From the NCBI GenBank assembly GCA_946615905.1, contig CAMOIE010000006.1, positions 1 through 64,000 of the forward strand: a stretch of DNA of 64,000 nucleotides, in the 5' to 3' direction. Under the pieces are notes generated by a model. It was not told the origin of the DNA, made no database searches, and saw only the letters and a program-made list of their open reading frames with translations. Shown in pieces: positions 12,687-62,461 of this stretch. How positions within the stretch are numbered: position 1 is the first letter of the stretch; each line of letters starts with the position of its first letter. The position numbers were made by a program, and so were the translations under genes. Source of the DNA: an uncultured Treponema sp. GTDB lineage: Bacteria > Spirochaetota > Spirochaetia > Treponematales > Treponemataceae.

Positions 12687-15476
12687 ATGAAAAAAAATAT
12701 CGTTTACAAAGCCGCGGCAATTTCTTTTGTCCTGGCTCTCGCTTCCTGCGCTTCTACTTCTACAAAAAAAGAAACCCTTCAAAGTCTGATTATGCAGGGA
12801 CGATACGAAGACGCAAAGGAAATGCTGAAAGTCCAAACTGACATCAATGAACGAGATGCAGACGGAAACACAGCCCTCCATGTCGCAGCACGTCTGAACG
12901 AGGCGGACATGACATCTTTTTTGATTATCAAGGGGGCCGACACAGAAATAAAGAACAACAAGGGTGACACAGCCCTTCACGTTGCAATAAAGAACAACGC
13001 CTTGGATTCAGCAAAAGTTTTGGCAATCGTCCATGGTGATATTTTTGCAAAAGATGCAAACGAAGACACGGCCCTTGAACTCGCACTCGCAAAAGGCTGG
13101 TACGATGCGATGATTACAAAGCAGACCGGAGAGATCCGGGACGTAAACGGCCAGTCAATCGTCCATTACTTTGTAAGAACCCGCAACGAAAGGGCAATCG
13201 ACTGCTGCATAAAACAGGAGCTTGATCTTTCAGTAAAAGACAGCAGCGGAATCAGCCCTCTTGCACTCGCCTTCCAGTCAGCACAGAACCCAGTGGCTAT
13301 CAGAATTGCAGCCAAACTGATTAAGGCAGGGGCAGAGACAGTCGGCGGCGACTATGAATATTTTGAGGAGGCTGTAAAAACCCGCAATGTCATGCTCCGT
13401 TTCAGCGATGGGCAGACTCCGCTCCATTTGGCGACAATTCAGGGACATTCGGGAATCGTGACCTATATTTTAAACGAAAAATCGTCGGTCCGACTGACAG
13501 ACATTCTCCAGGCCCAGGACATTTCGGGTGCAAGTCCCCTTCATGAGGCAGTCCGCTACGGACACGTTGAAACGGCAAAAGTCCTTCTTGACGCAGGGGC
13601 AAAAGTTGATGCCCTTGATTCAATCGGAAAATCTCCCTTTCTTTTGATTATTCCGGCAGACTCACAGTACAAAATGTACGAAACCCTGATGGAATACAAT
13701 GCGAACGTAGCACAAAAAGACATGTACGGAGACACTGTCCTCCATGTTGCAACTCTTTCCCGCACAAAGGCGGAAGTATTGAGCCTGCTCGTAAACAGGG
13801 GGGCACCGGTAAATGAGCGCAACAAGCAGGGGATCACGCCTCTTTCACTGGCAATTGAAAAAGGGTATCCTGAAATCGCCCAGTTTTTTGCGGAAAACGG
13901 GGCAGACATCCATGCGGCAGACCAGGACGGAGCATCTCCCCTCACAAAAGCCCTGGACTCCCCCTCGATTGACATGTTAAAGACCATTGTCACCCCCAAA
14001 AACATACTCTTGAAGGACTCAGCTGGAAACACAGCCCTCCACATCGCAATCATGCGGGACTCCCCATATGAATACATAAAATATCTCGTTGATTCCGGCG
14101 CAGACGTAAATGCCCGAAATTCAAACGGAGACTCAGTTCTTTATCTCGCAGTAACTAAAAATCGCAGAGACGCAGGAGACCTCCTTCTTTCAAAAGATGC
14201 GGACATCTTCGCCACAAACACACAGAATTATTCTCCCTTGAGAGCCGCCCTTACTGAAGGAGGAGAACTTCAGGACTGGATTATCACAAGCAAAACTCTG
14301 AACGCAAGGGACGGTTCCGGCAATACGCCGCTTCATTATGCCGCAGAATGGAAACTTGATGATGCAATCACGGGGCTCGCTCAAAAGGGAGCGAATGTAA
14401 ACGCCGTCAATGCAAACGGAGAGTCAGCCCTCTTCTCAGCAGTCAAGGCGGATTCACCCTCGACAATCGGGGCACTGGTAGAAAGCGGAATCACAACTGA
14501 CTTCAGGTCAAATTTGACCCGCGACCATTTGGGAAACACACCCCTCCACTGCGCAGTAAGATGGAACGCCTTGCAGGCTGCTCAGACCCTAATCGGAATG
14601 GGAATAGACGTAAACGCCCAAAATCTTTCAGGAAAGACAGCCCTCAGCGACACATGCAGGTCAGACAAAAGAGAAATGGCGATTCTTTTGATTCAAAACG
14701 GGGCAAACGTAAATTCAACAGACGCTACAGGCCGGTCAATTTTGATTGACGCAATTCAGGCAAACAACGCCCCCATGGTCTCCCTCCTGCTTGCAAACGG
14801 GGCAAATCCACAAATTCAGCAAATGTCAGGACGCAACGCCTACCACGAGGCCGCAATTTACGGCAAAGTTGACATAATTAACATGGTTCGCAAGGCAGGA
14901 GGCGCCCCTCTCTCAAGAGATGCAAAAGGTGACTCCCCCTTCTCTCTTGTTTTAGACTCAAGCGAAGAAATCATAAAGGCTGTTTTGGGAAGCGACACTA
15001 ACATCGTTGACTCAGACGGAAACACTCCGGTTCATATTGCGGTTTCAAAGAAAGTACCTTCAAAAAAACTCAAAATGATTTTGAACATGGGCTATCCGGT
15101 CAGCCAGAGGAACGGCAAGGGACTTACCCCTCTTGCAGAGGCCGTAAACAAAAATGCAAAAGGACTTGCCTTCATCCTTCTTGAACGCGGGGCAGACCCC
15201 TTCATAGCAACAACTGACGGGGATTCAGCACTTTCCAACGCATTCAAAAACGGAAACATAGAAATTCTCGATGAAATTGTAAAATACAACGCAAACAAAA
15301 CGGACATGCAGGGAGACACAATCCTCCACTATGCGGCCCGTCTTGCGACCGAACCGACGATTCAGCACCTATTGAACTTGAATCTCGACAGAAAAGTGAA
15401 AAATCTTTCAGGTGAGACACCGGCTCAGATGGCTTCCCGTTGGGAGCGTCCGGCTGCAGCAGAATTATTGATGTAA
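12687..15476 (+). CDS. Ankyrin-repeat lipoprotein
   Basis: 929 residues. The N-terminus is a lipoprotein signal with lipobox LASC, so the protein is exported and lipid-anchored. From about residue 28 to the end it is ankyrin repeats of about 33 residues, recognisable by recurrent GNTALHVA, GNTPLHYA and GADVNARN segments; more than twenty repeats can be counted roughly. Such solenoids are protein-binding scaffolds; nothing indicates the ligand. The ATG has a GGGAG Shine-Dalgarno about 8 nt upstream. It ends 1 nt from the stop of the converging trpR-like gene, leaving no room for a separate terminator. Size and repetition make it prone to repeat-number variation. Confidence 0.9.
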   Translation: MKKNIVYKAAAISFVLALASCASTSTKKETLQSLIMQGRYEDAKEMLKVQTDINERDADGNTALHVAARLNEADMTSFLIIKGADTEIKNNKGDTALHVAIKNNALDSAKVLAIVHGDIFAKDANEDTALELALAKGWYDAMITKQTGEIRDVNGQSIVHYFVRTRNERAIDCCIKQELDLSVKDSSGISPLALAFQSAQNPVAIRIAAKLIKAGAETVGGDYEYFEEAVKTRNVMLRFSDGQTPLHLATIQGHSGIVTYILNEKSSVRLTDILQAQDISGASPLHEAVRYGHVETAKVLLDAGAKVDALDSIGKSPFLLIIPADSQYKMYETLMEYNANVAQKDMYGDTVLHVATLSRTKAEVLSLLVNRGAPVNERNKQGITPLSLAIEKGYPEIAQFFAENGADIHAADQDGASPLTKALDSPSIDMLKTIVTPKNILLKDSAGNTALHIAIMRDSPYEYIKYLVDSGADVNARNSNGDSVLYLAVTKNRRDAGDLLLSKDADIFATNTQNYSPLRAALTEGGELQDWIITSKTLNARDGSGNTPLHYAAEWKLDDAITGLAQKGANVNAVNANGESALFSAVKADSPSTIGALVESGITTDFRSNLTRDHLGNTPLHCAVRWNALQAAQTLIGMGIDVNAQNLSGKTALSDTCRSDKREMAILLIQNGANVNSTDATGRSILIDAIQANNAPMVSLLLANGANPQIQQMSGRNAYHEAAIYGKVDIINMVRKAGGAPLSRDAKGDSPFSLVLDSSEEIIKAVLGSDTNIVDSDGNTPVHIAVSKKVPSKKLKMILNMGYPVSQRNGKGLTPLAEAVNKNAKGLAFILLERGADPFIATTDGDSALSNAFKNGNIEILDEIVKYNANKTDMQGDTILHYAARLATEPTIQHLLNLNLDRKVKNLSGETPAQMASRWERPAAAELLM

Positions 15477-51763: not shown

Positions 51764-51789
51764 TAGAAATTCGAAAATTCTGCCGATAT
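51764..51789 (+). promoter_or_regulatory. Sigma-28-like promoter before the acidic protein/DUF115 operon
   Basis: TAGA (51764-51767), 14 nt, GCCGATAT (51782-51789), compared with TAAA-N15-GCCGATAA: 3/4 and 7/8 matches with a spacer one base short. The -10 is identical to that of the flbD operon. It lies 54 nt before the ATG at 51844. The surrounding 162-bp divergent region is AT-rich and also holds TATAAT-like hexamers, so a sigma-70 start cannot be excluded. Confidence 0.5.
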
Positions 51790-51843
51790 TTCTAAGGTAT
51801 AAAAAGAAAACTTTAAAATTACTTCTAATTAAGGGGAAGATAT

Positions 51844-54468
51844 ATGAGTGACAGCGACAACACAAACGGACTTGACAGCTACGGCGTTTGGGTCAAAAAG
51901 CCTCCGCGCACAGTTGATTCTTCAGACGCGAATTCTGCGGAAGGAACTGACGAGCCCCTCAACATAGCGGCCGATCTTCCTGACTTCTCATCACTAGACG
52001 AGCCGACAGCTGACACAACACTTGCGGCTGACGATATTTCCAACGGACTTGAAAGTTCCGCTGATTCTACAGTCGCAGAGACAGACAGTTTCGGCGATTC
52101 TGCGGACGAATCAGGAGACGGAGAGATTTCCCTTGACGAATTCATCACGGACGGAGTTTTTGAGACCGGTCCTGACGAAGATAAAATCCGCGAAAAAGAG
52201 GCGGAAAAAGCAGCCCAGCAGGAGGAAAGCCCCTCTGACTCTTCCGCCGAGGACGAAAATATTTCATTTGACGAGCCTGCGGGAACTTCCGACTCCGGTG
52301 AGGAGACTCTTGCAGAAAGTTCATCTGACGACTTCTCATTAGATTTGTCAGATTCAAGCTCCGATGATTTTTCTGTCACAGCCTCAGACCCGACCGTTGC
52401 AGAGCCGGCAGAATCTTCCGCTGACGATGACTCTTTTGACATAGACCTTTCATTCGATGACTCTGGAGAAGGAGAAAATCCTGACGCAGAGCCAGAATCA
52501 TTCACGGCCTCATCAGGCACGAAAGATTCTTCTGCCACAGATGCGATTGCCGCTGACATTGAGGGAAGCGAGTCTGTTGATTTGAGTGAATTCGGCTTTG
52601 GAGATGACTCATCAGATTCTGAAAGCCAGAGTGAGGATGCGACAGTCGCAGAGTCAACAGAAAGCCCCGCAGACACAACAGCCGCCGAGGGAGAATCATT
52701 CGAGGACATGTTCAACACCGATTCCTCAGAATCTTCCGTCGAATCAATCACAGAAAATACAGAAGCAGAAAGCCCGATTGAGGGAACGGAAGAAGTCCAA
52801 CTCGATGACTTCACCACTGATTCTGTTGACGCAACAGAAGACGTAGATCTTTCCGCAGAGCCGGCAGAGTCAGCTGGCGTACAAGCAGAGGAAAATTCCG
52901 CAGAAGACGCAGAAAAGGACTCTTCATTCGTATCTTCAGGAGATGACGACTTTGACTTGGACGCAATTTTGAACGATGTCAAAGACGAGGACGGAAATCA
53001 GGTAAGCATCGGAGATGGAGAGGCTGCAGAAAACGTCTCTGCTCCCGAAGAGACTGTCACAAGTAACACAGAAGAAAATCTGTCAGAAGAGAGTGTAGAA
53101 GAGGAGTCTTTTGAACTTCCTGAAACCTCAATTGACGACACAATTTCAGAAGGCTCCACCGCGGAAAGCCTTGCAGAGCAGACCGAAGCTGGTGTTATAG
53201 AAGAGACAAGGGAGCCAGAAATCTCAGCAGAAGAGCCTGGCGTTTCCGAGCAGGAAAGCCTTGCGGAAGCCCCAGCGGAAGAGTCTTCAGTCTTCACTGA
53301 CGCAATTGACGACACAATCGCAGCAAGCGAGGCGGAGCCGGAAGTCACTTTGGATGAGCCTGCAGAAACAGTTTCAGAAGAGGCACCAGTTTCAATTCCA
53401 GAAGAACCTGAAGTGGCAGAAACAAGCGAAGAAATTCAGGAGACATTTGAAGAGTCTGCCCCTGCCACGACTACTTCTCCTTCTCCGGCAGCAGACCAAA
53501 CTTCACCGATTTTGAGCCAGATTGTCTCAGAGCTTTCCTCTTTGAAGGATGAAATTGCAGGTCTCAAGCAGGACTTTGCAAATCTCAAAAATTCAGACTT
53601 CTCAGGAAAGGCAGTCGAGTCGACAGCAGACTTTGAGGCGGACAGCCCAGTCTCAACTGAGGACGAGACAGAGATTCCCCAGGAAGAAGAAAAGTCCTCC
53701 GGCGGTTTCTTTGACGACAATGACGGAGACGACACAATCTCTCTTTCAAGCGATGAACTTGAGAATATTTTGAACAACGCTGACTTTACTGAAGAAGAAG
53801 GCGAAACCCACGGCGATGAAGAGGACTTGGGAATCACAGCTCCGACAGCCGAAGGAATCTCTGTTGAAGAGCCGGTCGAATCTTCTGACTCTACGGCAGA
53901 AGAGGCTCCGATTCCTGATGATGAGTTTGTCACAGAAGAATCTCCAATTCCTGCAAATGAATTTACAGAAGAAGGGGCAAGTCAGGACAGTGACCTCAGC
54001 ATGAATTTCGACAACGAAAAACTAGAGGAACCCGCCCTTGACGGAATCAGCTTCGACTCAGACGACCAAGGACAGATTTCTTCTGACTTGAATGAAGAAA
54101 TCGAAGAACCCAAAGTCGACAATATTCTGGTAGAATCTTCAACAACAGACTTGATGGACTCTGGGGAGGATACATCCGCTCTTCCGACCCAGACTGAAGA
54201 GCCTACAATTGAAGAAAGCCTCTCGGACGACAAGCTCGACTACCTTTCAAACGATCCTGGTGCGACACTTTCTATGGAAGCCGCAGCTGCGGAGTCAAAT
54301 ATTCCAGAAGGTTCTATTCCCAAGGACTTGAAAGCCGAGGTCAAGTCAGTTCTTTCTTACATGGATCAGCTGCTTGAAAATCTGCCGGAAGAAAAAATCG
54401 CTGAATTCGCTCGCTCTGAACAGTTTGAGACCTACAAAAAATTGTTCAAGGAGCTGGGACTGGCATAA
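51844..54468 (+). CDS. Giant acidic, largely disordered protein with FliM-like motifs
   Basis: 874 residues, cytoplasmic by sequence. Most of it is Glu/Asp/Ser/Thr/Ala-rich and surely disordered. Ordered islands: a coiled coil at about 556-585 (LSQIVSELSSLKDEIAGLKQ), and a conserved-looking C-terminal helical domain at about 820-874 (KAEVKSVLSYMDQLLENLPE, FETYKKLFKELGLA). Two short hydrophobic motifs stand out in the acidic sea: FDLDAILNDV (370-379) and LSSDELENILNNA (634-646). The latter resembles the CheY-binding motif of FliM (LSQDEIDQLL) and FliY in this window. AAGGGGAAG precedes the ATG. It heads a five-gene coupled operon with a sigma-28-like promoter. I infer a hub or scaffold; function is not known. 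Confidence 0.8.
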   Translation: MSDSDNTNGLDSYGVWVKKPPRTVDSSDANSAEGTDEPLNIAADLPDFSSLDEPTADTTLAADDISNGLESSADSTVAETDSFGDSADESGDGEISLDEFITDGVFETGPDEDKIREKEAEKAAQQEESPSDSSAEDENISFDEPAGTSDSGEETLAESSSDDFSLDLSDSSSDDFSVTASDPTVAEPAESSADDDSFDIDLSFDDSGEGENPDAEPESFTASSGTKDSSATDAIAADIEGSESVDLSEFGFGDDSSDSESQSEDATVAESTESPADTTAAEGESFEDMFNTDSSESSVESITENTEAESPIEGTEEVQLDDFTTDSVDATEDVDLSAEPAESAGVQAEENSAEDAEKDSSFVSSGDDDFDLDAILNDVKDEDGNQVSIGDGEAAENVSAPEETVTSNTEENLSEESVEEESFELPETSIDDTISEGSTAESLAEQTEAGVIEETREPEISAEEPGVSEQESLAEAPAEESSVFTDAIDDTIAASEAEPEVTLDEPAETVSEEAPVSIPEEPEVAETSEEIQETFEESAPATTTSPSPAADQTSPILSQIVSELSSLKDEIAGLKQDFANLKNSDFSGKAVESTADFEADSPVSTEDETEIPQEEEKSSGGFFDDNDGDDTISLSSDELENILNNADFTEEEGETHGDEEDLGITAPTAEGISVEEPVESSDSTAEEAPIPDDEFVTEESPIPANEFTEEGASQDSDLSMNFDNEKLEEPALDGISFDSDDQGQISSDLNEEIEEPKVDNILVESSTTDLMDSGEDTSALPTQTEEPTIEESLSDDKLDYLSNDPGATLSMEAAAAESNIPEGSIPKDLKAEVKSVLSYMDQLLENLPEEKIAEFARSEQFETYKKLFKELGLA

Positions 54469-55361
54469 TGGGACTTCTGAGCCGGATACTTTCATCTGAT
54501 TTTTCAAGTGACACGCCGCAGGGAGGACTTTTATCCCGCGCCTTGCTTTATGAGCGGCAGCCCCTCAATTTTTACGAGTGGGCTGACTCATACGGCTTCT
54601 CAAAGTGCGGAATTTTAAGCCCTGTCGCTTCCAGCTACGTGCTGACACACGCATTGGGAGTCGACGCCCTTTCTGTCGCCCTCTGTCTTTCCACCGATGA
54701 CTTTATCGGAGGCATCATCAACCTTGAGAAAAAGGAATGGCAGACTTTTGAGGGAGAGGGCTTGCAGCCCTTTTTCCAGCTATTCACCGATGAATTCACG
54801 ATGAATGTCACTTCCCTGCACTTTTTGCCCTTTGACTGCGATGGGAAAACTTACATCGCCCTCGTGGTTGACTCTGACGGAAAGCCTTCCGTTCTTCCAG
54901 AGGCCGGGAACGATGCGTTTTACCTGCTCAAAAAAGTAATCAGGACACCCTACCCCGTCTTCAACGAGGAAGCGGCTACAGCAGCCTGTGAAAAAGGCAT
55001 TGAGCAAGGAACCGGCTACCTTTATTTGCTTTCGTTCAAACTTGCAATCGACACGATTACAGGAATGCTTTCCCTTTCCAACGAGGAAATCAAGGACAAA
55101 AGCTACAAGGCGATTATGGACGAGTGCTTCAACAAGGCTCAAAAACTTTTCCAGTCGCCCAATTCCTGCGCGCGCGGTGAAAACTGCGAGATAAAGACTT
55201 TGATTTACGCCAAGGACGAAATCGACGAGACACTTTTGCAGTCACATATCAAAAAGGAATTCTCTGAGATTTTCGGCTCTTTTGCAGATAAAATCGTTCT
55301 CTTGATTGCCGGAACCTGTCCAAACGTAAAAGGCGCCGTAAAATTCCTCACCTGGGGTTAA
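54468..55361 (+). CDS. Conserved-context protein, function unknown
   Basis: 297 residues, no signal peptide or membrane helix. It begins MGLLSRILSSDFSSD, then appears as a mixed alpha/beta protein with strands around CGILSPVASSYVL, SVALCLSTDDFIGGIINL and TYIALVVDSDGKPS, a KKVIRTPYPVFNEE segment and a second half-domain (about 175-297) with LYLLSFKLAIDTI and KIVLLIAGTCPNVKG. No catalytic motif is recognised. It overlaps the stop of the acidic protein by 1 nt (TAATG) and is followed 1 nt later by the first DUF115 gene, so the products are probably made in fixed proportion. Confidence 0.7.
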   Translation: MGLLSRILSSDFSSDTPQGGLLSRALLYERQPLNFYEWADSYGFSKCGILSPVASSYVLTHALGVDALSVALCLSTDDFIGGIINLEKKEWQTFEGEGLQPFFQLFTDEFTMNVTSLHFLPFDCDGKTYIALVVDSDGKPSVLPEAGNDAFYLLKKVIRTPYPVFNEEAATAACEKGIEQGTGYLYLLSFKLAIDTITGMLSLSNEEIKDKSYKAIMDECFNKAQKLFQSPNSCARGENCEIKTLIYAKDEIDETLLQSHIKKEFSEIFGSFADKIVLLIAGTCPNVKGAVKFLTWG

Positions 55362-55362
55362 A

Positions 55363-56841
55363 ATGCATTCCGTCGAATTTTTACAGGCGGTGAACGGGGA
55401 AGAAACATCTTCCGTCGACGGAAAATTCCTCCACTCAAAATACAATCCGCTCAGAGAGGCGCAGACATTTGTCTCATCAATACAATGCACTTATAAGCCT
55501 TCCTCAATTTTGATTTTGGAGCCGGGGCTTTCATACTGCGGACGATTCTTGAAGGAACGCTTCCCGGATGCAAAACTTTACGCCCTCCACTACACGAAAG
55601 ACTTTCTCAAAAATGACTCAGTTTGGGACAGAGTTTTTTTTCCAGACTCAGACATTTTCTTTTCACTCGGCGAAGAAGAACTCTGCTCCTGCCTGACTCT
55701 ATCATGGCCGCCCTCTGACAAGATTTTTACCGAGGAAAGTTCCATCGTCTGGAAAAATGTAAAGGAAGCTGTCCTAAAAGCCCGTGACGTTTTGTACACC
55801 CGCTCGTATTTTTCAAAACGCTGGCTGAAAAATTCGATAATCTTCGCCGCAAGGATAAAAAATCCCCTTGTAATAAAAAAAAGGGGAAAATGCGACATCA
55901 TAATCGCGGCCTCAGGTCCTTCGCTAAAAAGCTCGATTCCTTTTATAAAGAAATTCCGAGAAAGTTTTTTTTTAATCTCCCTGTCATCAGCCTTGATGCC
56001 GCTTGTAAAAAACGGAATCATGCCGGATTTGGTCTTGTCTTCTGACGGCGGCTACTGGGCAAAAAGGCACTTGGACTTTGCGGGATTAAATCTTTCAGAG
56101 CCTACAGGCTTGAAATTCGCCCTCTGCTGCGAGGGAGCTTTTCCAGCAAGGATTCTCGAAAAAAATCAGGTTCTTCCGCTAGCCTATCCAGACAGTCTGG
56201 GGCGTAATTTTTTGGAGGCGGCCGGAATAAAAGATTTTGAGGCGCAAAGGAACGGGACTGTCAGCGGAACAGCGGCGATTTTCGCCCTGAATCTTACGGA
56301 AGGAAACGTATATTTTTGCGGACTTGACCAGGCTGCTACGAAAGGCTTTCAGCACTGTCAACCGAACGCTCTCGAAGAGCTGAACTGCGCAAAGGATTTC
56401 AGGCTTTCGACAAAGGAAAGCAGGACAAGCTCCTCAAGATTCAATTCTGACGGCTCCCTCAAAATCTACCGGGAATGGTTCTCAAGCCAAGGGGGCGATT
56501 TTTCAACGAGGGTAAAACGCCTTTCCGACAATTACGACTTCGCCTTTGGCCTAGGAAAAATTCAAGACGTTAACTGGCAGTATTTTGAGCAGAAACAGTG
56601 TCGGGGAGACTTTCCGTTAATTGAAAAGGCTGAAATAGATGGCAAGGCCGCCCGGCGGAATGAGAAAATCAAGGAATGCCTTGACTCACTTTGTGAGAGT
56701 CAGGCCGTCCAAAAGGAACTTTTCCCGCTTGAGAAAATTTTATACGGGCGTAGTCTGGACGAATATAAAAAGGCGAAGATTTTAAATGAAATCAGCAAAA
56801 AAACAAGGGATTTTCTAAGACAGGCCAAAAGGATTTTTTAA
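55363..56841 (+). CDS. DUF115/Maf-like protein, copy 1 (possible flagellin glycosylation factor)
   Basis: 492 residues. An N-terminal FLHSKYNPLREAQTF segment and a central Rossmann-like motif CDIIIAASGPSLKSSI (GPSL, near residue 182) are characteristic of the DUF115/6-hydroxymethylpterin pyrophosphokinase MptE-like domain found in Maf motility accessory factors. Further family parts are PDLVLSSDGGYWAKRHLDF and NVYFCGLDQAATKG. In Campylobacter, Clostridium and others Maf proteins transfer nonulosonic acids to flagellin. Treponemal flagellins are also O-glycosylated. A glycosyltransferase role is therefore plausible but not shown. The next gene is a paralogue; they overlap by 1 nt (TAATG). Confidence 0.8.
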   Translation: MHSVEFLQAVNGEETSSVDGKFLHSKYNPLREAQTFVSSIQCTYKPSSILILEPGLSYCGRFLKERFPDAKLYALHYTKDFLKNDSVWDRVFFPDSDIFFSLGEEELCSCLTLSWPPSDKIFTEESSIVWKNVKEAVLKARDVLYTRSYFSKRWLKNSIIFAARIKNPLVIKKRGKCDIIIAASGPSLKSSIPFIKKFRESFFLISLSSALMPLVKNGIMPDLVLSSDGGYWAKRHLDFAGLNLSEPTGLKFALCCEGAFPARILEKNQVLPLAYPDSLGRNFLEAAGIKDFEAQRNGTVSGTAAIFALNLTEGNVYFCGLDQAATKGFQHCQPNALEELNCAKDFRLSTKESRTSSSRFNSDGSLKIYREWFSSQGGDFSTRVKRLSDNYDFAFGLGKIQDVNWQYFEQKQCRGDFPLIEKAEIDGKAARRNEKIKECLDSLCESQAVQKELFPLEKILYGRSLDEYKKAKILNEISKKTRDFLRQAKRIF

Positions 56842-58394
56842 TGTCAGAAAGCAAATACACTGGAATAATTCAGGCGAAAAACGCCTCTTTGATTCCGCAG
56901 GCAAACGGGAAAAACCTGCATTCCTCATACAATCCAGACCGGGAAGGCGAAACTTTCGCATCAAACGCGCCGGAAGGCAGTTTTTTCGTAATCGGGGGAA
57001 TTTGCGGAGCCTTTCATATCGAAGCCCTGCTGAAAAGATTCCCGGAGTCAAAAATTATCGCCGCAGAAGAAAATCAGGAATCAATTGACTTTTTGCTAAG
57101 ACTTGAGAATGTAAAAAAACTTTCAGCAGACCCGAGGGTGACTTTCACAGAGGCAAAAAATCTTGCCAGAGTCATAGCAGAGACCTATCTTCCGCACATA
57201 GACGGGAATCTCGCATATCTGCCCCTCCGCTCATGGGAGGAGAATTTTCCGCTTGGTTCCGCGCTCGCAAAGGCGGCTGTAGATTCCGCCTTGAAAATGG
57301 TCGGAGCGGATTTTTCTGTTCAAAGCCACTTCGGAAAAATCTGGCAGAAAAATTTCTTCTCAAACCTGCATTTCCTGAAAAAATCAGCGGAAAAAAATCC
57401 CAAAGACTTGAAAATCTCTTTTGACCAAAATGACATAGAAAAAACAGCAGCAATCATAGCGGCAGGGCCGAGTCTGGATTGGTCATACAAAAAAATCGCG
57501 GAAAAACGCGGTGAATATTTCGTAATCGCCACGGACACGGCCTACCAGGCCCTTGCAAAACGGGGAATCACGGCGGACGCCTGTATCTCAATTGACGCGC
57601 AGTTCATATCCCGCGAGCATTTTTTCAGTCTGGGGGCAAAAACACTTTTCATCTTTGACTCATGCGCAAACCCTCAGTCAGCTAGGAGGACAGTCTCCCA
57701 TCCACAGTCTAATGACTCAAAAACTTTCTTTTGCATGACAGGTCACCCCCTGCCCCGTCTGGCTTTTCAAAGCGGGAAAATCAATTTGCCTGAAATCTCC
57801 TCTGGCAGCGGAACCGTGACAATAGCGGCAGCCTCATTCGCACTCATGGCAGGTTTCACAAGGCTGGAATTTTTCGGGGCAGACTTTTCATATCTGGACG
57901 GAAAATCCTACACAAGGGGAACATACCTGGACTCAATTTACGGCCGGTCATCCTCAAGGCTGAACCCGGTAGAAAATCAGTACGACTCACTTTTATTCAG
58001 GACCGAGCTTGAAAAAATCGGGAGAAATCAGTTTACGACAAAAGTGCTGGCTTCATACAGAGCCTCGCTGGAAGAATTCTTGAGGCAAAATGGACTTGAG
58101 AAGTCAGGAGATAATATTTGGAGCTTTCCAGAGTCAGAAAAAAAAGCGGGAAACTCGACATTTGACTTAAAATTCGGCAGGAATTCAGCGCACGAACTGA
58201 AAAACTTTTTAAAAGCAGAATTGGTTGGGCTAAAAAAAGAAATTAAAGGCGGAAATTTGCAAAAAGTCAGGGGCAATCCTGCATTTTTCTCCATTCTCCC
58301 CATGTCGGCATTTTTCCAGCGGCAGGGTGCGCAAAGGGATGAAAGTTTTTACCTTGCGGCAGAGGGGACTTTAAGTTATACTGATTTATTATGA
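56841..58394 (+). CDS. DUF115/Maf-like protein, copy 2
   Basis: 517 residues, paralogous to the preceding gene. The same marks are present: NLHSSYNPDREGETFAS near residue 25, AAIIAAGPSLDWSYKKIA (GPSL near 213), DACISIDAQFISREHFF, a Ser/Gly-rich SSGSGTVTIAAASFALMAG segment and FFGADFSYLDGKSYTRGTY. Two adjacent divergent copies suggest either two acceptor substrates or a heteromeric enzyme. It overlaps the next gene by 4 nt (ATGA), continuing the unbroken translational coupling of the operon. Confidence 0.8.
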   Translation: MSESKYTGIIQAKNASLIPQANGKNLHSSYNPDREGETFASNAPEGSFFVIGGICGAFHIEALLKRFPESKIIAAEENQESIDFLLRLENVKKLSADPRVTFTEAKNLARVIAETYLPHIDGNLAYLPLRSWEENFPLGSALAKAAVDSALKMVGADFSVQSHFGKIWQKNFFSNLHFLKKSAEKNPKDLKISFDQNDIEKTAAIIAAGPSLDWSYKKIAEKRGEYFVIATDTAYQALAKRGITADACISIDAQFISREHFFSLGAKTLFIFDSCANPQSARRTVSHPQSNDSKTFFCMTGHPLPRLAFQSGKINLPEISSGSGTVTIAAASFALMAGFTRLEFFGADFSYLDGKSYTRGTYLDSIYGRSSSRLNPVENQYDSLLFRTELEKIGRNQFTTKVLASYRASLEEFLRQNGLEKSGDNIWSFPESEKKAGNSTFDLKFGRNSAHELKNFLKAELVGLKKEIKGGNLQKVRGNPAFFSILPMSAFFQRQGAQRDESFYLAAEGTLSYTDLL

Positions 58395-59782
58395 AGTCAA
58401 AAAATTTTAAATTGTTCGTTGTTTTAATTCCGGCAGTTTTCGTAGCCGCACTTATTTACCTTGCAGCAGGAGTTTACGCCGACAAAAAAGAAGGTCCTGT
58501 AAAAGCTCAGGCCCGCTTTGAGGATTTGATTTCAAAAACAGCAGTTACAGCCAGCAATTTTGAGCCGGGAACAATGCAGTTTTCAGCCCAGTTCATCCGT
58601 GACATAGGTCAGATTGACGACTTTGCGGCATTAAAATTAGTTTTGAACGGAGCAACAATCTATTCATATCCGAGAGAAGGGCTTTCTGGTCCGGCGGCAG
58701 AATTCGTATCAACTTTCAGCAAAACTTTTTCCACAAAATACGGGAACACACTCGAACTCTCAGCCTCCGTCTACATTTTAAAAACCGAGTCCATTTACAG
58801 CCATGCCAGAGTCTCATTCCTTTTGATTTTGATTGGAACAGTCGCAGCCGCTTTGATCCTTCTTTTGTCCGATGAAAAAAGTCAAAAATCAGAAGAAAAT
58901 GGAATTCTTTCTCTAAAAAAGAAAATCGCAAGCGCGGAAAAATCAGGCAGATTCAGCAAAAAAACTGCTGACGAGGATTCAATAGAATTTGTCGATGAAA
59001 ATATTGATGAAGCAAGCCAGCTTGAAAACCCAGTGGAAGAAAATGTGACTCTTCAGGAAGAGGAAGAAGCGGTTGAAAGTCCAGCTGAGAATTCCGGCGA
59101 GTTAAAAGAAGATGATTATGACGAAGAAATCGACTTGCAGTTTTCCGATGCGACAGATTATGAGGACTCCTTTGAAAAAGACGGGGAAAGTTCATTTAAC
59201 GCCCTTGATGACGACTTGACTATTGAAGAATACGAAGAGACTTCAGAAAGCCAAGCAAATGAGAATTCTCCGGAGGCAGTTGCAGATGCAGACTCGGACA
59301 CACAAGGCGAAATTTTAGAGCAGTCAAAACTCTACGAGAATCTCACTGGGGAGCTTACCAAGGCGAGCGAAAACAACGAGGACTTGTCTGTAATCGTCTT
59401 AAAAATCGAAAATCTTGATCGGGGAAACTTAGTTTCTAAAAAAATAGTTGGTCTTTTAAAAGAAAAAATCGCCACAAAAGGAAGTATTTACGCATTCAAC
59501 ACGGACAGCTACGCATTGACTCTCAATGACACCGCTTTGGACGGAGCTTTTGCCACCGCGTCAGAATTGCAGAGTCAGATTTCTGAGATTTTAAAATCTG
59601 AATCAATGGAAAATATAGTGACTCTCGGTGTTGCAGCCCGCACAAGCCGCAACTTGGATGGAAAGACACTCGTTACGGAAGCACTACAAGCTCAAAAACA
59701 TGCGGAAGAAGACCCGTCATCTGCAGTCGTGGCGTTCCGAGTCAATCCAGAAAAATACCGTCAGTACGTTCAGAACGCCTAA
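58391..59782 (+). CDS. Membrane protein with degenerate GGDEF-like domain
   Basis: 463 residues. Membrane helices at about 7-28 and 137-160 flank a periplasmic region of about 105 residues. An acidic low-complexity linker follows (about 165-305, similar in flavour to the acidic protein four genes upstream). The C-terminal ~155 residues resemble a diguanylate cyclase fold: LSVIVLKIENLD at the start, SIYAFNTDSYALTLND where the signature GGDEF is expected, and TLGVAARTSRNLDGKTLVTEALQAQ near the end. The signature is replaced by NTDSY (370-374), so c-di-GMP synthesis is unlikely; it may sense or bind. It ends 1 nt from the stop of the convergent TPR lipoprotein gene. Confidence 0.7.
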   Translation: MKSKNFKLFVVLIPAVFVAALIYLAAGVYADKKEGPVKAQARFEDLISKTAVTASNFEPGTMQFSAQFIRDIGQIDDFAALKLVLNGATIYSYPREGLSGPAAEFVSTFSKTFSTKYGNTLELSASVYILKTESIYSHARVSFLLILIGTVAAALILLLSDEKSQKSEENGILSLKKKIASAEKSGRFSKKTADEDSIEFVDENIDEASQLENPVEENVTLQEEEEAVESPAENSGELKEDDYDEEIDLQFSDATDYEDSFEKDGESSFNALDDDLTIEEYEETSESQANENSPEAVADADSDTQGEILEQSKLYENLTGELTKASENNEDLSVIVLKIENLDRGNLVSKKIVGLLKEKIATKGSIYAFNTDSYALTLNDTALDGAFATASELQSQISEILKSESMENIVTLGVAARTSRNLDGKTLVTEALQAQKHAEEDPSSAVVAFRVNPEKYRQYVQNA

Positions 59783-60476: not shown

Positions 60477-61529
60477 TTATTCTAGAACAGTATCTTCAAT
60501 TTTTGCGAACTGGTCGCTGTAAAGACCTGCGATGTTGGAACCGTAGTCTGCAATCAGGCGGATAATATTGCGGGGATTATCCTTTTTGTCACAGCCGTTC
60601 AGGCGGTCGCCTGCATCACCGAGTCCTGGCATGATGTAGGCCTTTTCGTTCAAAGTCGGGTCCAGCCAAAGAGTATAGCAAGTGCAGTTCGGAAGCGCCC
60701 TGGTTACGCGCAGAGAGCCTTTGAGGGCGGAAATCACGTTGAAGAATTTGATTGACTTGGGTTTTACGCCCTGGGCCTCAAGATATTTTACGACAGTGAC
60801 AAGGGAGCCACCGGTTGCGTTCATCGGGTCGGCAAAAACCCAGTCCTTTCCGTCAAGCTCCTCAATATTGAAGAAGGAATTTTTGAGATTCAAAACGTAT
60901 TCCATGTTGTTTTCCTGCTTTGTATCGTCGCGGTTGATTTTAAAGAGGGCGAAGGGGGTCACATATCTGTGGCTTGAATATTCCTCGATTTCCTTTGACA
61001 TGATCACGGACGGCAAAAGGGCTCCGCGGAGCATCACGCACATGACGGTATTCTCAATTTTGTGGTCGATGTCAGGAATTTTGTGGACTGCATAGTTCTG
61101 CACGGGAGAAGTCACCGGAGTTTTTACTATGATGTGGCCTTTCTCATTTGAATGCTCGTCAGTGTAGGCGAGGCGGAAAAGCATCTCGTATGCGCGCTGG
61201 ACGTAATACAAAAATTCCTGATGGCTTGTGCCCTGGTCTCGAAGTTTTGCTATTACGCGACTGGCCTCGGCGTGGCTTCCCTCTTCAGTCTCAAAAGAGA
61301 AAACTTTAATGGCAGGATTTTCCTTGCAAATCTCCTGAAGTTTGTGTCCCAACTTGTCAAAAGACTCAACGATTTTATCTTTATCAGCAGGTTCAAAAAA
61401 TTTCATCGTGTCTTCGTACATTGACTTGAGTTCCTGCAAGTCAGTCATGTCCTTTTTTGTCAGATAGCCGTCAAGATCCTCTGCTTTAAGGATGATTTTT
61501 TCAGCGTTTTTCATAAGTTCATTCTCCAT
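60477..61529 (-). CDS. upp: Uracil phosphoribosyltransferase with N-terminal extension
   Basis: Salvages uracil with PRPP to UMP. The C-terminal ~210 residues are the UPRT domain: PRPP loop [14 protein letters not shown] near residue 235 and uracil-binding [13 protein letters not shown] near 305. Both active-site motifs look intact, though the PRPP loop has Asn and Leu where Leu and Ala are common. Residues 1 to about 125 are an extra helical region not found in ordinary ~209-residue UPRTs ([40 protein letters not shown]). Its ATG overlaps the stop of the upstream lipoprotein gene by 1 nt (TAATG), so the two are coupled. Confidence 0.85.
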
Positions 61530-62413
61530 TATTTGTATATCAAAGTTAAAAGTTCATTCCAAGATAAATCTATATCCGTTATAGAAATACGACTTGCAGA
61601 GACCTGCTGGATTTTCGCAGGAATCGGGAATAGGGCTATTTTCAAAAGGGCGCAGGCGGCTTTCGTAGTCCTAGGGTCGGTCATCTCCAAGTCCAGACGG
61701 AATGCGTAGACATTCTCCTTTTTTGACGGGGTCAGAATTCCACTCAAAGACGACACCTTGACGTTCACGGACTTGCCCAAAAAGCGCTTTAAAAATTTCT
61801 GCGGGTCAGGGGCAATCATGCGAATCTCGTAATCGGTTCCGCTTGTCAAAAATTTCACGACATCATCACCGATTCCATTCTGGTAGGCCTGACCTTCAAT
61901 TCCAACATCTTTAGCCAAAAGAGAGTCAAGAGCCTTTCCATAATTTGAAATCATCGGACTGACATCATAGGAGACAAGGACGTTATAATTTGACGGCAGG
62001 GACATTTGAATTGCTGACGCTGACTGCTCATAATAAACCATCTGACTGTCAGGGTCATTTTTGATTTTCCAGCCGTTTTTTTCGTTCAAGGCAGAAGCAG
62101 CGTACTTTATCGGATAATTTCCAAGGATTGCAGCTTCAAATCCATGGTTTGGAGTTCCTGTCGCAATAGCCAGGGTCTCTGTTCTGGAAGAAATTCTTTT
62201 TGCATCCCCTGTCGATGTCCCGGCAATTTTGGCAAAAGCCTGGGTCACAAAATCTTGATTTCCTTTTACCGGAATGTAAATATACATCGCAGCATCCGAA
62301 GAAAGCATAGCCAGAGGATCTACAGCAGGAATATCTGGGGCCGATCTACAGGAAAAAAAGAGGGCACCGCAAATAAGTGCGAGGGTAAAATTTCGTAAGA
62401 TTTTTTTATTCAT
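61529..62413 (-). CDS. Lipoprotein, function unknown
   Basis: 294 residues from ATG 62413 (the longer reading to 62434 crosses a TATAAT). Lipoprotein signal with lipobox FFSC, Cys near residue 21. The mature part has [41 protein letters not shown] and [20 protein letters not shown], a mixed strand/helix pattern without a recognised family. A perfect TATAAT (minus strand 62428-62423) ends 9 nt before the ATG with a weak -35, so the leader is only a few nt. It is coupled to the uracil phosphoribosyltransferase gene; why a lipoprotein should be paired with uracil salvage is unclear. Confidence 0.75.
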
Positions 62414-62461
62414 AATCGTAAGATTATAGCACAAAAGATGATAGAATTGGTACGCTTTTAA

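Follow-up and report, generated by a model that had tools for sequence, protein, structure and literature searches.

A flagellum-linked five-gene operon of the Spirochaetia that encodes two Maf-type proteins and a predicted acidic scaffold

What might five tightly coupled genes do together when they encode a giant acidic protein, two relatives of the Maf flagellin glycosyltransferases and two proteins that resemble inactive cyclic di-GMP enzymes? The question is raised by a locus in a 64-kb stretch of DNA from an uncultured Treponema sp. (contig CAMOIE010000006.1, positions 1 to 64,000, forward strand; hereafter the window). Periplasmic flagella define spirochaetes, and the order of the operon is kept in most spirochaetes whose genomes encode flagellin; its link to the flagellum is well supported. 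The evidence tips, by our own judgement slightly, towards a sensor-regulated Maf pair that is expressed from a sigma-28 promoter, sits on the acidic scaffold and modifies the proteins of the filament. The operon appears to be undescribed so far, as no description of the locus was found in the literature searched, with subscription literature lying outside that search. It suggests where to look for the enzymes that modify the filament and for what regulates them.

Gene order and association with the flagellum

A first-pass annotation of the window had described five coupled genes for a giant acidic disordered protein, an unknown protein, two DUF115/Maf-like paralogues and a membrane protein with a dead GGDEF-like domain. 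When the open reading frames were re-read, their coordinates and all four junctions agreed exactly, with every gene on the plus strand. Gene 1 (51844..54468, 874 aa) encodes the acidic disordered protein, a putative scaffold, and gene 2 (54468..55361, 297 aa) a protein predicted to consist of a GAF domain (residues about 31-161) and a degenerate GGDEF domain (about 161-296). Genes 3 (55363..56841, 492 aa) and 4 (56841..58394, 517 aa) encode Maf/DUF115 paralogues A and B, the former in a clade of its own and the latter with a full three-domain Maf fold. In the product of gene 5 (58391..59782, 463 aa), a transmembrane segment, an extracytoplasmic segment, a second transmembrane segment and an acidic linker precede a degenerate GGDEF domain. 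From gene 1 to gene 5 the junctions read TAATG, TAA-A-ATG (a 1-nt gap), TAATG and ATGA.

The five genes stay together through the class Spirochaetia, as judged from two sets of 38 neighbourhoods. The first set, from Treponemataceae, was selected by gene 2; the order of genes 1-4 is identical in 38/38, and gene 5 follows except at two loci where it was not recovered. To avoid selection on gene 2, the second set was drawn by gene 3 alone from other families and distant treponemes, and gene 1 lies upstream in 35/38 (the remaining three reach a contig edge) with gene 4 adjacent in 36/38. Many families other than Treponemataceae have an opposite-strand gene between genes 4 and 5, and the one tested is Memo-like (PF01875). 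Even a treponeme genome of 1.14 Mb (G020) carries the operon, as do G015 and G042. Gene 2 diverges too fast for a search of genome contigs, which returned no gene-2-related loci. A plain protein search finds it in 57/118 genomes of the family, a figure that understates its presence, and some gene-2-negative genomes, such as G035, G073 and G078, do have genes 1 and 3.

The link to the flagellum that had been proposed for the operon holds across a class-wide sample of 297 genomes. DUF115 (now PF01973) and FliG occur together in 192 of these and are both missing from 54, with DUF115 alone in 4 and FliG alone in 47; the Fisher p of 3e-26 was computed without correction for phylogeny and overstates the case because the genomes are not independent. 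The four genomes with DUF115 only are fragmented metagenome-assembled genomes, and all four encode flagellin. Those with FliG only comprise 36 genomes of 0.9-1.9 Mb in one Borreliaceae-like family, which is probably Borreliaceae, and 11 in which the FliG match is weak. Repeated absences strengthen the link: DUF115 is missing from families f6, f7, f12 and f21 (FliG and flagellin are absent in those tested), from genus g38 of family f15 and from two f13 genomes. The nonulosonic acid synthase NeuB follows the same pattern, being present in 53/53 operon-bearing genomes tested versus 2/26 aflagellate or Borreliaceae-like genomes, and all four DUF115 genes that a flagellated genome usually holds are missing jointly with NeuB in flagellin-less and Borreliaceae-like genomes. 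Most informative are nine genomes that keep FlhA and encode no flagellin, namely G126 and G185 (f13) and seven of f15-g38, for example G153, G128 and G171; DUF115 was found in 0/9 of them and NeuB in 0/8 tested, while FlhA, flagellin, DUF115 and NeuB are all present in the sister genus g75. Since FlhA is kept where flagellin, DUF115 and NeuB are gone, the presence of the gene set follows that of the filament and not that of the export gate. The same flagellin-less genomes also carry a divergent FliG-like C domain, and what they possess is possibly a flagellar export machine without a filament, or else a different type III-like system.

Upstream of gene 1 lies a promoter-like site of the sigma-28 type, TAGA-N14-GCCGATAT (51764..51789, plus strand). 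The 8-mer GCCGATAT recurs before flagellar genes, on the minus strand at 44880-44873, so that the identity of the two -10 elements reported in the first-pass annotation was recovered. Counted within the window alone, sites of this pattern show no significant excess: 8 occur, and Markov shuffles yield about 3.3 with a maximum of 9. The count was dropped as evidence, and the upstream regions of gene 1 orthologues were used instead. There, CCGATA is present in 59/74 regions, with a shuffle mean of 2.6 (maximum 8), in 36/39 of the Treponemataceae set and on the reverse strand in only 4/74. The context across orthologues is T[G/A]CCGATAA, and a GCCGATAA-like -10 stands at a conserved place, 59/74 against 2.6 expected, as for a member of the sigma-28 (FliA) regulon. 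The sigma-28 promoter mapped for T. denticola flaB2 has a matching -10 (-10 CCGATAA, -35 TTAA; PMC9481697). The -35 is poorly conserved, with weak information at -21 to -16, and the window has TAGA-N14 versus TAAA at N15. The case for sigma-28 control thus comes from a -10 conserved among orthologues and not from the window count.

The Maf-type pair and its paralogues

Both genes 3 and 4 match PF01973 well above its gathering cut-off of 34.6 (67.9 bits, 1.2e-18, and 88.6 bits, 5.3e-25, respectively), in line with their annotation as DUF115/Maf-like paralogues. The AlphaFold2 model of gene 4 (predicted local distance difference test, pLDDT, 92.9) returned the Magnetospirillum Maf (5mu5) as the sole Foldseek match below 1e-3 (E = 1.2e-10). 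The two superimpose end to end (model residues 1-517) with a VIA Z of 17.7 over 443 residues, covering all three domains, and the N-terminal domain of gene 4 falls inside the alignment. For gene 3, a profile match to 5mu5 (3e-8) covers the central part only. The next structural matches of gene 4 are M. jannaschii HPPK/MptE (Z = 13.7) and, for the central domain, sialyltransferases (Z about 8.6). The former, together with the derivation of the PF01973 name from archaeal MptE, raises the alternative that the pair belongs among the pterin or other nucleotide-sugar enzymes of this fold rather than among the glycosyltransferases. We regard this as very improbable, since the full-length, three-domain match is to Maf, the central domain resembles sialyltransferases as well, and the genes co-occur with NeuB and flagellin. 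A phmmer match of gene 4 to VopV was dropped, as no single stretch was significant and a profile did not reproduce it.

Whether this pair glycosylates flagellin, as had been proposed, has to be considered together with the other PF01973 genes of the same genomes. Nearly all flagellated genomes tested hold four (range 3-6), and the DUF115 tree resolves four strongly supported clades, which correspond to gene 3, gene 4 and solitary types of about 620 and about 560 aa; the survey thereby reveals a fixed set of four DUF115 genes per genome. The ~620-aa type, the longest of the four and encoded outside the operon, is the sole paralogue with a trace of PF20157, the Maf N-terminal model, and may for that reason be the main flagellin transferase. 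In several families it shares a contig with fliG at a distance of about 26-30 kb. With two of the four fixed paralogues outside the operon, flagellin transfer is not necessarily the task of the pair inside it. Both products are of the Maf type, as claimed, but they are half of a fixed set, and flagellin glycosylation by this pair becomes one option among several. It is accordingly conceivable, although we hold it rather unlikely, that the locus is linked to the flagellum while the ~620-aa Maf modifies FlaB, and that genes 3 and 4 modify a different protein of the filament, such as the sheath protein FlaA, FlaG or the cap, or form a non-catalytic assembly or chaperone platform. The fixation of four distinct clades in the class, the PF20157 trace and fliG proximity of the ~620-aa type, and the absence from gene 3 of two residues that the other paralogues share would all fit such a division of labour; the joint loss of the four DUF115 genes and NeuB is instead what a single pathway would predict.

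A flagellin-locus context for the other two DUF115 genes was rejected for the present genome, where they lie beside PBP2/LepB and a SurA-like/solute-binding cluster. The PF01973 members of an operon at locus L148, outside the class, fall next to the gene-3 clade in one case and within the gene-4 clade in the other, on long branches that make the placement uncertain; this suggests that the pair probably predates the class.

The acidic protein, the degenerate GGDEF proteins and their modularity

The composition of gene 1 (D+E 30%, K+R 3%, predicted pI about 4, 874 aa) is that of the giant acidic disordered protein first described. Its conserved parts are an N-terminal YGVWVK motif, an internal TIxLSxxELxxIL motif and a C-terminal domain of about 45 residues with the consensus LKxxIKSVLxYMDQLLEnLPEeKIxEFAxSexFxtYKKLFxeLGL. 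The ends are far more conserved than the disordered middle, and the C-terminal domain reaches a mean column identity of 78% in the family. This domain is found in 180/297 genomes of the class and 203/296 of the phylum Spirochaetota, in one copy per genome, and gene 1 was not found in the f12 and Borreliaceae-like genomes listed. The short TIxLSxxELxxIL-type motif recurs in orthologues beyond the class as well. In the form [ST]IxLSxxELxxIL(xx)A, found in the window at about 53730-53775, it bears what we take to be a superficial resemblance to the N-terminal LSQxEIDALL helix of FliM.

The second protein, for which no identity had been offered, is predicted to be a GAF domain followed by a degenerate GGDEF domain. 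Its AlphaFold2 model (63 sequences, pLDDT 92.6) has the GAF-GGDEF cyclase Dcsbis (4zmu) as best Foldseek match (E = 1.3e-4). Residues 31-161 superimpose on GAF folds with VIA Z values of 9-10.5 over about 120 residues (NreA/NitrOFF, Z about 10), and residues 161-296 on GGDEF folds with Z values of 8.2-8.4; these values are moderate, and the domain order of both halves is that of Dcsbis. Pfam does not detect GAF in gene 2 of the window, and PF13492 (GAF) matches the protein that follows gene 1 in other classes. The family consensus of gene 2 contains no GG(D/E)EF active-site signature, and the operon would thus hold two dead cyclic di-GMP-type modules, not one. The other module is that of gene 5, whose appearance, with two hydrophobic segments (about residues 3-31 and 137-163) ahead of the GGDEF-like domain, fits the membrane-bound sensor or anchor originally suggested. 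A weak GGDEF match and a profile comparison to GGDEF structures (5euh, 2.5e-9) identify this domain. In the profile alignment 'kedgf' replaces the 'ggeeF' of 5euh, and the family consensus has no conserved Arg at the RxxD cyclic di-GMP I-site.

The distribution of these components reveals separable modules. In the flagellin-less genomes G126 and G185 genes 2-4 are gone and genes 1 and 5 are adjacent (L129:8363-10746 and L130:136-1887), a natural dissection of the operon into two parts, the scaffold together with gene 5 on the one hand and the GAF and Maf genes on the other. Gene 1 persists in g38 genomes only as a stub of about 95 aa (e.g. L132:8633-8908) that keeps a YGVWVK-like motif and part of the C-terminal domain, which G153 retains more fully. 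Beyond the class, a GAF protein comes after gene 1 in the five families examined with Pfam, and two families have the order fliS, gene 1, GAF protein and a FapA-like beta-solenoid gene (L153:7409-12259 and L160:7029-12776, both minus strand). Given the phylum-wide pairing of gene 1 and GAF with no adjacent DUF115, and genes 1 and 5 in flagellin-less genomes, the hub appears older or broader than the glycosylation part, and the earlier view of the acidic protein as hub of a polar or flagellar assembly or modification complex has to be widened. In other classes gene 1 also stands right after a run of F-type ATP synthase genes and before a large GAF-domain protein (L156, by Pfam; L154, L155, L158 and L167 have the same arrangement of ATP synthase run and gene 1, judged by gene lengths).

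Such a distribution invites the alternative that the operon is primarily a cell-pole or envelope scaffold with a positional or divisional core role, into which the GAF and Maf genes were recruited in flagellated lineages. The single-copy, phylum-wide C-terminal domain and the gene 1-gene 5 remnant would be consistent with it, as would the divergent neighbour of gene 1, an FtsL/DivIC-type gene (PF04977; 51133-51681, minus strand) that persists beside it in much of the class. Yet the listed f12 and Borreliaceae-like genomes, in which gene 1 was not found, must have poles and division too, and the sigma-28-type -10 and the fliS neighbours elsewhere also speak for a flagellar role; we consider the alternative improbable.

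The flanks of the operon (smpB/sua5/ftsL and TPR/UPRTase) are constant throughout the genus, and a horizontally acquired island was rejected on this ground. Positions 61529-62434 (minus strand) encode a homologue of TP0453, a T. pallidum lipoprotein associated with the outer membrane (PF20740, 1.7e-28); the gene evolves fast, yet adjoins the operon throughout the genus. Elsewhere in the window, 12687-15476 (plus strand) encodes a 929-aa protein composed mostly of ankyrin repeats.

A proposed mechanism and its relation to known systems

In the mechanism that we favour, the five genes would form one co-transcribed unit with a sigma-28 (FliA) promoter, and would on that account be made late in flagellar assembly, alongside the filament proteins. 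Genes 3 and 4 would act as a cytoplasmic Maf-type pair that, ahead of export, places a nonulosonic-acid sugar on Ser/Thr residues of FlaB-class filament proteins. Of the two, gene 4 would be the likelier catalyst, and gene 3 a diverged partner or a member with another specificity. For A. caviae Maf, modification of flagellin in the cytoplasm before export is reported (PMC4065374). Gene 1 may serve as an acidic flexible scaffold that holds its partners through its conserved ends and a short recurring motif. Gene 2 and the membrane-anchored gene 5 would be sensors or adaptors without enzymatic activity, keeping the assembly at the inner membrane and tuning it to a small molecule.

Several observations weigh against this mechanism. 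PF20157 has no match at E<=1 in genes 3 or 4, and D232 and Q254 (gene-4 numbering), fixed in the other three DUF115 paralogues, are missing in gene 3, which may be non-catalytic or differ in specificity. The two extra paralogues of each genome could carry out all flagellin transfer. Flagellated Borreliaceae-like genomes have no operon, and the persistence of genes 1 and 5 in G126 and G185 indicates that part of the unit has another role too. The dead GGDEF domains revealed no motif for ligand binding, and the weak -35, as far as sequence comparison goes, also counts on this side. What remains of the first-pass reading is the conserved unit, its tracking of the flagellum, the -10, the Maf type and the sensor- or anchor-like appearance of the membrane protein; the identity of protein 2, the role given to the DUF115 pair and the scope of the hub have changed.

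A bolder version is no more than tentative, and we would entertain it without expecting it to hold: a phylum-wide hub in which the scaffold recruits a two-subunit Maf, one subunit catalytic and the other a pseudo-enzyme, gated by two dead GGDEF-fold receptors. If so, a small-molecule signal at the membrane would switch flagellin glycosylation and hence filament assembly. The favoured mechanism also predicts that Borreliaceae, which have neither DUF115, NeuB nor gene 1, do not make such a flagellin modification.

Glycosylation of T. denticola flagellin was reportedly described by Kurniyati et al. in 2017. No paper found in the literature searched assigns the operon, or the DUF115 genes within it, to that pathway. 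According to PMC9481697, the FlaBs of this organism, which belongs to the same family, bear a glycan of 450.2 Da required for filament assembly and motility. Gene 2 shares the GAF-then-GGDEF-fold order of the diguanylate cyclase Dcsbis and lacks its GGDEF signature. Receptors that combine GAF with a degenerate GGDEF, such as PelD, are also among the closest known systems; gene 2 is encoded beside Maf genes and not beside polysaccharide synthase genes.

We know of no Maf system described so far in which subunits serve as scaffold or receptor. The PF01973 central domain is shared with the Maf flagellin glycosyltransferases of Magnetospirillum (5mu5), C. botulinum, A. caviae and C. jejuni. The three-domain fold of the Magnetospirillum enzyme is that of gene 4 as well, and the genes likewise co-occur with a NeuB-type synthase and flagellin. 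Genes 3 and 4 have diverged too far outside the central domain for the Pfam Maf N-terminal model to match; and unlike known Maf systems, the spirochaete locus groups two diverged, adjacent paralogues with a pair of dead GGDEF proteins and an acidic scaffold, five genes in one unit.

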